In this document: one piece after another, positions 12,601 to 16,144 of the stretch
Layout of the letters: the number at the start of each line of letters is the position of its first letter
Position numbering within the stretch: the first letter of the stretch is position 1
Assembly: GCA_022361195.1 (NCBI GenBank)
Contig: JAKSBJ010000339.1
Span: 1 to 64,000 of the forward strand
Direction of reading: 5' to 3'
DNA: 64,000 nt
DNA from: Flavobacteriales bacterium
GTDB taxonomy: Bacteria > Bacteroidota > Bacteroidia > Flavobacteriales_D > Crocinitomicaceae
Notes under the pieces: generated by a model
The model's database searches: none
What the model was told of the DNA's origin: nothing
Seen by the model: only the letters and a program-made list of their open reading frames with translations
Made by a program: the position numbers and the translations under genes

Positions 12601-12738
12601 ACGGCACTTGCTGTAACTCAGGAAAGATTGTCTAACCTCAATGAAGATGGCTCTTTTGTTCCGTTTGAAATTGTTGATCTTACAACTAAATTGGGGGATC
12701 CTTGCGGAACTCAAATTGTCTTCCGCTTACAGATTTAG
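9685..12738 (+). CDS. Two-component-propeller sensor histidine kinase (LytS/YehU-type kinase core)
   Basis: 1017 residues from a TTG start that directly precedes a signal peptide (IQILVLKGILLLSFF, cleavage near ANAQA). The periplasmic part holds a long series of Reg_prop propeller repeats (for example MAWIGTQGGGLCIY, LWIATLNNGVYVY, IWLGTSGGGVSIF, VWIGTEGQGLGIF), followed by a Y_Y_Y domain (YRWRLSGVNPDWTP ... LTPGKYTFEVKA). One membrane span lies at about residues 770-790, then a coiled coil and a His_kinase domain with phospho-acceptor His822 in LQMNPHFIFN. The HATPase N-box is PPLMIQPFIENAIIHG. It has no receiver or AraC domain, and no LytTR response regulator follows, so the partner is elsewhere. 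The stop codon overlaps that of the helicase gene. Confidence 0.9.
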   Translation: MFFNCRIIQILVLKGILLLSFFQIGGGKANAQAFNFQELSIQQGLPQSQAYAILFDSRNMAWIGTQGGGLCIYDGAEIKIKTKNDSLISNRIYSLKQIDNEIWVGQKGGVSIFSLKGQFRRNFQFANKSIIVQDIIKYENEILLATNGGVMIYFAGEFQNYQENPNISTVNCESFYLDSKEDLWCCTVVGLLNYKDPLKKISKDRKMLTGNRVTTAIDFLNYRLVGTYDGGLNVLHPTEGRVDLPALEELSDKIIWDLFVSENSELWIATLNNGVYVYNRRDKSLKNFNSENGLTNNNVKVIAADYWENIWLGTSGGGVSIFQNSPFIKYSTASGLNSNYIFSVLHDRDENLWVATEGTGVLRINDTSTVLFDEEFGFHSSKVKALYQDRTGDVWIGTEGQGLGIFSASDQKDTIYSVKGRLGLNANWIKCFEEDPESGTMYVGSSDGGIYKVNKGRDFPVSLKFSRLKVNKGKLPSKVSDLCFVDDRLWYTTGTSGTIGYVHQKEVYNFSESQTTFRNIVGKDGFYWAGTSEDGIFSFQLKDDSLFNTSWVTSSEELSSNNIYQLILNDNEIWVGTEKGLDRLYLDSLNEIRSVEHYGFEEGFEGVETNINANYCDQDDNLWFGTVNGLYKYQGGEVNYAQRKPPLLWIEDFQIAYQSIEETEYRDYYEDGKMVKDLLLPYDQNNIQFNFKAIHFIYWKNIQYRWRLSGVNPDWTPPSKINAAVYSNLTPGKYTFEVKASIDDNWDVEALQINFEIDQPYWEKFWFKASYYSLTAFILLLIILIIVFRVRRKNRAIREKLEMEKNLIELEQKALRLQMNPHFIFNVLNSIHNLIILNDPDKARYALSKFSKLMRRVLENSREKFISIDDEVETLENYVQLEKLTSGIDLNLEFDIDEELDTHEELLPPLMIQPFIENAIIHGLKDLDRRGEIKIGFKLLNEHLLECSIADNGRGRKKAAQINSQKENYHKSTALAVTQERLSNLNEDGSFVPFEIVDLTTKLGDPCGTQIVFRLQI

Positions 12739-15026
12739 TCGAGAATTTCCAGTCGGGCGAACTTTAGTAGTAGTTGCTTATTTCCGGATTTAGGAAAAAA
12801 CACAGTTGCCTTTACTGGAGGACTTCCTTCTAAGCCCACAACTTTTCCTTTTCCAAATCGTTCGTGCATCACATTATTCCCAACTTTTAAATCCAATAAA
12901 CTGGCTTGTGTTCCACTTTTAGGTTTTGTATCAGCCGAAGAAACTCGCTTTAGGTTTCTTTGTTTCGTAGAGAAAACACTTTTGGTGGCTGATCCCGTCT
13001 TCCGTTCCAAGTTTACCTGGTTCAATGACCTTCCGCCTCCGCTACTTCTTCCTGATTTGGCTACATCTAAATGCTGCTTGTCGATCTCCTCAATGAATCT
13101 GCTTGGTTCACTTGTTATCAAATTTCCCCAGCGATAGCGACTTGTAGCGTAGGTCAAAGTAGCATTTTTCTCCGCTCGGGTTAAGGCAACGTAAAAGAGT
13201 CGTCTTTCTTCCTCTAACTCCGTTCGGGAATTCAATGCCATTTGAGATGGAAAGAGGTTCTCCTCTAGTCCTACTATATATACATAAGGGAACTCCAAAC
13301 CTTTTGAGGAGTGAATAGTCATTAAAGTGATCTTATCCTTATCTTCTTCTTTTTCTTCATCGGCATCGGTCAAAAGTGCAACATCAACCATAAAGTCACT
13401 CAAATAAGCAGTTTCATCTTCACCTACATTTTCAGTGAATTCTTTAATACCTGCTAATAAAGCCTGAATATTTTCGTAACGTGATACCCCTTCTGGACTT
13501 TTATCATCATAAAGATCTTTTAATATACCGGAACTTTTAGCGATGTTCTGTGCCAGTTCGTAAGCATCGACTTTATCGAGTTGAACCGTATAGCTTTTAA
13601 TAGCCGTGACAAAAGCTGCAATCTTGTTCATGGTTCCAGAAGGAATTCCAGCTGGGTATTTTGAAGGTTGGGTAATTATATCCCACAAACTCACCGGATT
13701 TTCATCAGTGCTGTAATGGTCAGCAGCAACAATCACCTTTTCAATTGAGGTTTTCCCAATTCCACGTTTAGGGTAGTTGATTACCCTTTTTAAAGCTTCC
13801 TCATCTTTTGGATTGGCGGTTAAACGGAAATAAGCCAAAAGGTCCTTAATCTCTTTTCGTTGATAGAAGGATAGTCCACCGTATATTTTATAGGGAAGGT
13901 TGAGTTTTCGTAAAGCTTCCTCAAAAGAACGTGACTGTGCATTGGTTCTGTACAAAATTGCAAAGTCCGAATTGGCTGCTTGTTCATTGACCTTTGTCTC
14001 ATAAATTAAGTTGGTGACCACTTTACCTTCTTCATTATCGGTCAAGGTCCGAATAACTTTTATTTTATTTCCCTCAGTATTGTCAGTCCAAACTGTTTTT
14101 TCAATTTGATCTTTATTCTTGGCAATGACACTATTGGCTGCATTAACAATCGTTTTAGTGCTTCGATAATTTTGCTCTAGTTTAAAAGTCGTATGCTTAG
14201 GGTAGTCATTCTTAAAGTTGAGAATGTTCTCAATATTTGCTCCACGGAAAGAGTAAATACTTTGAGCATCGTCCCCAACAACACAGATGTTCTCATACAT
14301 TGCCGCTAGCTTTTTGACAATTAAATATTGAGAGTAATTGGTGTCCTGATACTCATCTACTAAAATATAGCGAAAGCGTCTTTGATAAAAATGAAGCACA
14401 TCCGGATGATCGCGGAACAAAACATTGGTCTTATACAATAAATCGTCAAAGTCCATTGCTCCTGCGGCAAAGCATCGTTTTTCGTAAGCCTTGTAAATTT
14501 CAAATAATCGAGGCTTACCACTCATACGATCTTCGGTAACAATATCTGAATTGGCTTCATAGGCTGCAGCCGAAATTAAATTATTCTTTGCTGATGAAAT
14601 TCGTCCATGAACTAAACTGGGTTTGTAGGTTTTATCATCTAACTTCAAGTCCTTGATAATCGCCTTTAATAAAGAACGGGAGTCCTGAGTATCGTAAATG
14701 GTAAAGTTGGATGGGTAGCCTAACTTGTCCGAATGAAAGCGCAATATTTTAGCAAATACCGAGTGAAAAGTTCCCATGGTCACATTCTTGGCCTCCGAGC
14801 CTCCAATAATGTCTGAAATCCTCGTTTTCATTTCACGAGCAGCTTTATTGGTAAAGGTCAATGCAAGGATGTTGAATGCATCAACTCCTGAATCAATCAA
14901 ATAAGCAATTCTGAAAGTTAAAACACGGGTCTTTCCCGATCCGGCTCCGGCTATTACCATGGAGGCTCCTTCAGTATGTTTTACGGCTTTTCTTTGTGGA
15001 GGATTTAGGCTTTCCAGATAGTTCAT
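12735..15026 (-). CDS. UvrD/PcrA-type superfamily 1A DNA helicase
   Basis: 763 residues from the ATG at 15026; a GTG two codons upstream is less likely. Walker A is AGAGSGKT with Lys32, motif II is VDEYQDTN, motif III GDDAQSIYSFRGA, motif V/VI VALTRAEK. The C-terminal ~50 residues (VGNNVMHERFGKGKVV ... KFARLEIL) form the Tudor-like domain of PcrA/UvrD, which contacts RNA polymerase in studied homologues. The enzyme is a 3'-5' helicase in nucleotide-excision and transcription-coupled repair. The name pcrA or uvrD cannot be chosen on sequence alone. It is divergent from the str operon and convergent with the kinase gene. Confidence 0.93.
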   Translation of the reverse strand: MNYLESLNPPQRKAVKHTEGASMVIAGAGSGKTRVLTFRIAYLIDSGVDAFNILALTFTNKAAREMKTRISDIIGGSEAKNVTMGTFHSVFAKILRFHSDKLGYPSNFTIYDTQDSRSLLKAIIKDLKLDDKTYKPSLVHGRISSAKNNLISAAAYEANSDIVTEDRMSGKPRLFEIYKAYEKRCFAAGAMDFDDLLYKTNVLFRDHPDVLHFYQRRFRYILVDEYQDTNYSQYLIVKKLAAMYENICVVGDDAQSIYSFRGANIENILNFKNDYPKHTTFKLEQNYRSTKTIVNAANSVIAKNKDQIEKTVWTDNTEGNKIKVIRTLTDNEEGKVVTNLIYETKVNEQAANSDFAILYRTNAQSRSFEEALRKLNLPYKIYGGLSFYQRKEIKDLLAYFRLTANPKDEEALKRVINYPKRGIGKTSIEKVIVAADHYSTDENPVSLWDIITQPSKYPAGIPSGTMNKIAAFVTAIKSYTVQLDKVDAYELAQNIAKSSGILKDLYDDKSPEGVSRYENIQALLAGIKEFTENVGEDETAYLSDFMVDVALLTDADEEKEEDKDKITLMTIHSSKGLEFPYVYIVGLEENLFPSQMALNSRTELEEERRLFYVALTRAEKNATLTYATSRYRWGNLITSEPSRFIEEIDKQHLDVAKSGRSSGGGRSLNQVNLERKTGSATKSVFSTKQRNLKRVSSADTKPKSGTQASLLDLKVGNNVMHERFGKGKVVGLEGSPPVKATVFFPKSGNKQLLLKFARLEILD

Positions 15027-15132
15027 AAACACAAAAATAGCTAAAATCCCTAGGGGATTGGCTTGAGCAAAGGGAAAAAAAATAAAAACTTAATCGATAA
15101 AAAATTGATGTTCAGGGGAAGTAATAGAGGGG

Positions 15133-15185
15133 TTGAGAGCTATTTTAACAGTCGATCGTGAAAAAAGTTAAAATAATGCTCTCAA
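15133..15185. repeat. Long inverted repeat just upstream of the str operon promoter
   Basis: The left arm TTGAGAGCTATTTTAAC (15133-15149) is complementary to GTTAAAATA (15167-15175) plus GCTCTCAA (15178-15185), a 17-bp stem interrupted only by a 2-nt AT bulge. The centre is 17 nt and contains CGATCG. The right arm ends 3 nt before the -33 element of the str promoter. There is no T-run, and no plus-strand gene ends here, so it is not a terminator for that strand. It could be an operator, or a structure in the leader of the divergent helicase mRNA. Confidence 0.7.
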
Positions 15186-15187
15186 AA

Positions 15188-15218
15188 ATTGTATTATAAA
15201 AAAAACTTAATACCTTTG
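15188..15218 (+). promoter_or_regulatory. Promoter of the str-S10 ribosomal operon
   Basis: TACCTTTG (15211-15218) matches the Bacteroidota -7 consensus TAnnTTTG. ATTG (15188-15191) is 19 nt upstream, the expected spacing for the -33 element. Transcription would start near 15224, giving a leader of about 65 nt before rpsL. This is the only strong match in the spacer. Confidence 0.75.
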
Positions 15219-15288
15219 CACTCCGAATTTTGACGAATTTGGATGTGTTTTATATGTGTAACAGTAGTAAATAATAAGATTAGTTAAG

Positions 15289-15663
15289 ATGCCAACTATT
15301 CAACAATTAGTAAGAAAAGGGAGAAAAGCTCAAGTTAAAGCAAGTAAGTCTGCTGCGCTTGACTCTTGTCCACAAAGAAGAGGTGTTTGCGTTAGGGTTT
15401 ACACCACCACTCCTAAAAAGCCTAACTCAGCAATGCGTAAAGTAGCAAGGGTAAGGTTAACCAATGGAAAAGAAGTGAATGCTTACATCGGTGGTGAAGG
15501 ACATAACTTACAGGAACACTCGATTGTGTTGGTAAGAGGTGGAAGGGTAAAAGACCTTCCGGGAGTTAGATATCACATTGTAAGAGGAGCGTTGGATACA
15601 GCTGGAGTAGAAGGAAGATTACAAAGACGATCAAAATACGGAGCTAAACGACCTAAGAAATAA
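15289..15663 (+). CDS. rpsL: 30S ribosomal protein S12
   Basis: 124 residues, full length. Decoding-centre protein of the small subunit and target of streptomycin-resistance mutations. The conserved blocks [18 protein letters not shown] and [17 protein letters not shown] are intact; the lysines of KKPNS and VKDLP, where resistance changes usually occur, are wild type. First gene of the str operon, 10 bp before rpsG. Confidence 0.98.
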
Positions 15664-15673
15664 TTAAGGAGTC

Positions 15674-16144
15674 ATGAGAAGAAGACAAGCAAAAAAGCAT
15701 ACAATTTTACCTGATCCAAAGTTTAAAGACGTTCAGGTGACTAAGTTCGTCAATAACCTAATGTTACACGGGAAAAAGAGTGTTTCTTTTAAGATCTTTT
15801 ACGATGCAATGGCAATTGTTGAGTCAAAGGTTGAAGATGAGAAACCTCTAGAGGTTTGGAAGCGAGCGTTGTCAAATGTAGCTCCTGGTGTTGAAGTACG
15901 TTCAAGAAGAGTTGGTGGAGCAACGTTCCAGATTCCAACTCCTGTTCGTGAAAACAGAAAGCAATCATTAGCCATGAAATGGTTGATTGGTTTCGCAAGA
16001 AAAAGAAATGAAAAAACAATGTCGCAAAAATTAGCGGCAGAGATCATCGCAGCGTCTAAAGAAGAAGGTGCAGCTTTCAAAAAGAAAGAAGATATGCACA
16101 GAATGGCTGAAGCGAATAAAGCATTTTCACATTTTAGAGTTTAA
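15674..16144 (+). CDS. rpsG: 30S ribosomal protein S7
   Basis: 156 residues, the usual bacterial length. Primary binder of the 3' major domain of 16S rRNA; lines the E site. Typical sequence [17 protein letters not shown] at the start and [13 protein letters not shown] in the middle. Lies between rpsL and fusA with 10-bp and 2-bp gaps, so the three are translated from one mRNA. Confidence 0.98.

Follow-up and report, generated by a model that had tools for sequence, protein, structure and literature searches.

A conserved 18-bp palindrome as putative operator upstream of the str operon promoter in Crocinitomicaceae, recurring at other promoters across Bacteroidia

Control of bacterial ribosomal-protein operons is usually attributed to signals linked to rRNA and to feedback at the mRNA level; the str operon of E. 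coli is under autogenous control by S7 at the RNA level. Among regulators acting on DNA, E. coli CRP is a class I activator with sites at -61.5 and -71.5, and orphan global activators of the NarL/FixJ type are also a known kind. For Bacteroides thetaiotaomicron, a near-palindromic promoter motif (PM2) with elements centred at -10 and -30 has been reported (PMC7366714), and the main text of the F. psychrophilum transcription start site paper covers sigma-factor motifs only (PMC9723704). In the open-access literature searched, which was a limited set, neither a description of the TNMACA-N6-TGTKNA motif reported here or of a corresponding regulon, nor a paper joining clpC, ftsK, Bacteroidetes and a binding motif was found.

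The window (the whole stretch of DNA analysed, 64,000 nucleotides) contains the str operon and, divergently oriented, a gene for a helicase. At its N-terminus, the helicase shares 83 % identity with that of Crocinitomix catalasitica. This is the nearest named relative in the collection, so that the window belongs to the Crocinitomicaceae (Flavobacteriales) or to a lineage near them. The elements on the str side are:

15145-15162, plus strand: conserved palindromic site, a putative regulator operator (TTAACA-GTCGAT-CGTGAA; extended match 15143-15165)
15189-15191, plus strand: TTG, the -33 element of the rpsL (str operon) promoter, with a 19-nt spacer to the -7 box that is the same in nearly all relatives
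15211-15218, plus strand: -7 box of the rpsL promoter, TACCTTTG (TAnnTTTG), of the Bacteroidota -33/-7 promoter type
15289-15663, plus strand: rpsL (ribosomal protein S12), first gene of the str operon, with its ATG at 15289

The putative site would belong to the common dimeric operators, and its geometry is similar to that of class I sites. It resembles the class I sites of CRP in being a dimeric palindrome upstream of the -35/-33 element, with centres near -62 to -64 and -70, and in occupying alternative positions about one helical turn apart. In contrast to CRP, the half-sites are inverted (ACA-N6-TGT here versus TGTGA-N6-TCACA), and the promoter is of the Bacteroidota type. Control by S7 concerns the same operon but acts on the mRNA, whereas the conserved site described here lies upstream of the predicted transcript. 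PM2 is likewise near-palindromic and located at Bacteroidota start sites, but its elements at -10 and -30 differ in position from the palindrome at -60 to -70. Uncommon, by comparison, are a conserved DNA operator at str and a regulon that would link the synthesis of ribosomes to ClpC, to hydrolysis of the wall and to division.

For comparison among relatives, the rpsL upstream regions were aligned by anchoring on the TTG of the -33 element. The palindrome (T-N-M-ACA-N6-TGT-K-N-A, with A's following) is present at 22 of 32 rpsL promoters of the family, its TGT always being located 32 or 33 nt upstream of TTG; dinucleotide-shuffled rpsL upstream regions contained a mean of 0.20 sites, none of them at the 32/33-nt position. 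A strict pattern comprising site and promoter was matched exactly once in each of 61 out of 120 family genomes, and a reversed pattern, serving as a test of composition only, yielded 0 matches. No recognisable rpsL site was detected in at least seven genera of the family. Beyond the family, the site is found at 33 nt from TTG in families f2, f11 and f76, and at 22 nt, i.e., about one helical turn closer, in f6 and f3; in f10 it is likewise shifted by one turn towards the promoter. The half-sites are symmetric in ACA/TGT, M/K and T/A, including the T at -12, which had not been imposed by the pattern. Dyad-symmetric half-sites at a fixed spacing of 6 bp are conserved across species, and the site recurs at set positions of orthologous target promoters, both being marks of an operator. 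Since the palindrome is also kept in genomes where pcrA is not the neighbour, it belongs to rpsL.

The copy in the window departs once from the core, having C at 15157 where the consensus has the first T of TGT (CGTG versus TGTG in the right half-site), and therefore escapes the strict patterns; we infer that it may be a working site despite this change. Taken together, the palindrome in our judgement quite probably serves a dimeric transcription regulator as operator, and this regulator would be widespread in Bacteroidia. In part, this agrees with the original prediction of a DNA-level site at the str promoter fitting a dimeric regulator: such a site is probably present as the 18-bp palindrome, but the 17-bp dyad to which this role had been assigned (see below) is unlikely to be that site.

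Two other explanations concern the conserved element itself. It could represent an A/T-rich, UP-like contact for RNA polymerase, with promoter composition accounting for its recurrence at other genes; the right flank indeed forms an A-tract and promoters in these genomes are A/T-rich. Composition of this kind does not explain the exact 6-bp spacing of ACA and TGT, the symmetric positions that were not imposed by the search, the sharp distance peak and the recurrence at orthologues (see below), and known UP elements are located nearer to the promoter (about -40 to -60), rendering this explanation rather improbable. Alternatively, the two halves could form an inverted pair of DnaA boxes (cf. TTWTNCACA) by which DnaA would regulate str. 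The words TGTGGAAAA and TGTGAAAAA resemble relaxed DnaA boxes, and box-like words occur beside the site in some clpC regions. Against this, the base required by DnaA as C is often A (at the K/M position, T is found in 66 % of the sites), and the spacing is strictly 6 bp with dyad symmetry, so that a pair of DnaA boxes is considered very unlikely. The dnaA-proximal regions of the family contain no box cluster and hence provide no local DnaA consensus for comparison.

The palindrome overlaps with a longer inverted repeat, which had been the subject of the original prediction:

15133-15185, no strand assigned: 17-bp dyad with arms at 15133-15149 and 15167-15185 and a 2-nt bulge at 15176-15177

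The left arm reads TTGAGAGC-TATTTTAAC (15133-15149) and the right arm GTTAAAATA-AT-GCTCTCAA (15167-15185), AT at 15176-15177 being the bulge. The arms form 9+8, i.e., 17 Watson-Crick pairs around a loop of 17 nt (15150-15166), and the TTG of the -33 element begins 3 nt past the end of the dyad. The nearly perfect repeat and its position thus were as originally described. In a search allowing one bulge, the 17 pairs compare with a maximum of 15 over 1000 dinucleotide shuffles of the spacer (0 of 1000 equal), and the dyad ranks first in the 64-kb window, the runner-up having 14 pairs. Folding z-scores are -4.0 for the plus and -6.2 for the minus strand, with 0 shuffles equally stable. The dyad is present as a single copy in the genome, ruling out a repeat family or mobile element. 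An intrinsic terminator, for which a GC-rich hairpin and a subsequent T-run would be expected where a gene ends, was also rejected: no terminator-like site and no T-run were found at the dyad, and both flanking genes diverge from it, in agreement with the earlier view that there is no plus-strand gene to be terminated. A search of positions 14900-15700 against Rfam 15 gave nothing at the gathering score and just two hits far under the threshold.

Among relatives, the dyad is not retained. Within 120 nt upstream of the -33 element, 17 pairs are formed here, and the next best values among 50 other rpsL regions are 14, 13 and 11; a dyad of 17 pairs occurs in 0 of these 50, and the best dyads of the closest relatives with divergent pcrA comprise 6-8 pairs. 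Absence from close relatives had been named beforehand as the outcome that would refute a regulatory role of the dyad, and it is what was observed (0 of 50 regions with a comparable dyad). The dyad was accordingly rejected as a conserved element, and it appears to be specific to this genome or lineage, where the lineage is to be read with the composition of the comparison in mind (no second genome of the same genus among the relatives searched). The palindrome consists of the inner end of the left arm plus part of the loop, and its axis lies about 4.5 bp off that of the dyad. The perfect 17-bp dyad would be a recent lineage-specific outgrowth using the left half-site of the operator, and it may either influence binding or be incidental.

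The earlier reading, in which the whole dyad is the operator of a large dimeric or tetrameric regulator of str, is favoured by a repeat that is far more perfect than expected by chance, occurs only once and exactly abuts the -33 element; moreover, conservation at the genus level is possible, as the compared rpsL regions are all from other genera. Nothing comparable exists in the 50 other rpsL regions (next best 14 pairs; 6-8 in the closest pcrA-divergent relatives), and the symmetry that is conserved has a different axis. A role of the entire dyad as operator is hence regarded as unlikely, and the 18-bp palindrome remains the preferred candidate.

An alternative that had also been suggested is an RNA fold of the dyad within the leader of the divergent helicase transcript; on this view, the fold would regulate pcrA. 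The features on this side are:

12735-15026, minus strand: divergent gene for a pcrA/uvrD-type helicase, with ATG 15026-15024 taken as its start
15032-15039, minus strand: -7 box of pcrA, TATTTTTG, 5 nt before the pcrA ATG

In flavobacterial start mapping, the -7 box spans -12 to -5 (PMC9723704). Of 17 genomes in which pcrA is divergent, 16 have a TAnnTTTG box 4-6 nt ahead of its start codon (loci L003-L031, L085). Because a box at -12 to -5 here abuts the start codon, the pcrA mRNA is predicted to be essentially leaderless, and conservedly so; the prediction rests on the promoter position. With the same assignment, rpsL transcription would start near 15223. The minus strand of the dyad does fold stably (z -6.2) and the dyad is located upstream of pcrA, but the predicted mRNA start is about 110 nt downstream of the dyad and the pairing is not conserved. 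A structured pcrA 5' leader was therefore rejected and is considered extremely unlikely. As pcrA is predicted to be essentially leaderless and the predicted rpsL start lies downstream of the dyad, the latter would be contained in neither mRNA, and dyad and operator, being upstream of both predicted starts, would act as DNA, if at all.

The palindrome is not restricted to rpsL. In 14 site-bearing genomes, it was searched for at 30-60 nt before any -7 box. The rpsL matches lie at 54 or 55 nt (TGT to TA of the -7 box); of the 31 distances allowed, just three (46-48 nt) account for 16 of the 23 matches outside str. A search over a narrowed range of distances yielded 59 matches in 59 relatives versus 2 control matches, and a class-wide search of 159 genomes gave matches in 70 of them versus 9 control matches, the preferred distance at targets across Bacteroidia being 46-49 nt from the -7 box. 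We regard the distance peak together with the recurrence at orthologues as stronger evidence than the reversed control.

One recurrent target is clpC (about 20 order-level genomes and further ones at class level). Others are ftsK, the gene for DivIC, genes for DUF3352-type proteins, an orphan NarL-type response regulator and a small SINDLRE protein. Pfam confirmed ClpC, FtsK, DivIC, one DUF3352 protein and the response regulator, and the remaining names were given from the sequences: a secreted glucosaminidase-like protein, whose family is without profile-search confirmation, an outer-membrane-like protein (OMP) starting with MKKS..DLTSKKGEPILPE, an alpha/beta hydrolase, a UPF0173-like hydrolase and ExbB/TolQ-like proteins. 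The genome analysed here contains a second site (G000:C13:9045-9110, L291), which precedes the -7 box of a gene for a DUF3352-like membrane protein by 48 nt; the protein has no Pfam match, and counterparts of its gene in other families also possess the site (L298, L344, L361). The best reading of these data is that the palindrome marks a regulon, which in Crocinitomicaceae would include str. The SINDLRE(K/R)EF proteins (89-95 aa) are uncharacterised and occur as targets in different families of Bacteroidia (L401, L408, L418, L432).

The sole transcription-factor gene among the targets is that of the orphan NarL-type response regulator. Of 59 relatives, 58 have one clear orthologue, in which the GerE domain is conserved; the exception is G057 of family f13, and both f13 genomes have no regulon match either. 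The DNA-binding domain of the regulator is more conserved than the receiver domain (mean top-residue frequency 0.83 versus 0.64). No description of this Bacteroidia orthologue was found in the papers searched. The palindrome precedes the regulator gene in three other Bacteroidia genomes (of two families), and by inspection it is absent from the corresponding promoter in Crocinitomicaceae. With three Bacteroidia genomes carrying the site and the family genomes being without it, the near-universal GerE-domain protein remains a candidate only. Its self-control would at best be lineage-dependent, because the Crocinitomicaceae promoter has a TTATTTAAAATCATTCTAAATAA box instead. A conserved TTATTTAAAATCATTCTAAATAA palindrome, observed just upstream of this near-universal regulator gene (L187-L236), resembles a metal-responsive operator.

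DnaA is a weaker candidate than the NarL-type protein. As a tentative and rather doubtful proposal, a Bacteroidia-wide regulon under the near-universal orphan NarL-type regulator, able to control itself, would join str, ClpC, wall hydrolysis, OMPs and division (ftsK, DivIC) via TNMACA-N6-TGTKNA. Whatever the regulator, a conserved DNA operator that str (the largest ribosomal operon) has in common with clpC, ftsK and envelope genes would provide Bacteroidota with a transcription-factor route tying ribosome synthesis to proteolysis, wall turnover and division. The precise motif, its geometry and the list of targets provide the means to find the regulator.

With the -7 box at -12 to -5, the operator centre would be at about -69.5 to -70.5 at str in the family, at about -59.5 at str in f3, f6 and f10, and at about -62 to -64 at most other targets. 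A dimeric regulator would bind TNMACA-N6-TGTKNA as a DNA site upstream of the promoter and, once bound, might contact RNA polymerase from the upstream side, as class I activators do. As the centres match positions from which dimeric activators usually contact RNA polymerase, class-I-type activation is the leading guess for the sign of regulation, and the regulator is probably of this type; repression or DNA bending from the operator position is possible. The rpsL distances of 33 versus 22 nt are one helical turn apart, and the spacing of 54/55 nt at str versus 46-49 nt at other targets differs by about 7 bp; for class I sites, allowed positions about 10-11 bp apart on one helical face would be expected.

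Two further observations concern the str mRNA and the promoters of 16S rRNA. Close to the predicted rpsL start, a hairpin is located:

15222-15243, plus strand: hairpin predicted at the 5' end of the str mRNA, with z averaging -2.5 across 69 leaders

Most relatives fold a hairpin at the same place with stems differing in sequence, e.g., CCCTCAAA/TTTGAGG, CCTGAAA/TTTTCAGG and CCGAATTT/AATTTGG, and these changed stems suggest a conserved 5' structure of the str mRNA. In Fluviicola-type genomes, two extra identical sites coincide with the -33 region of promoters for 16S rRNA; they were taken as chance matches, TTG-TTAAAAA mimicking a half-site. In three Fluviicola-type loci (L165, L166, L168), the region shortly before 16S rRNA contains -7 box units that are stacked and almost identical to one another (GGGGTGCAAAGGTAA, other strand), and these look like tandem rRNA promoters.
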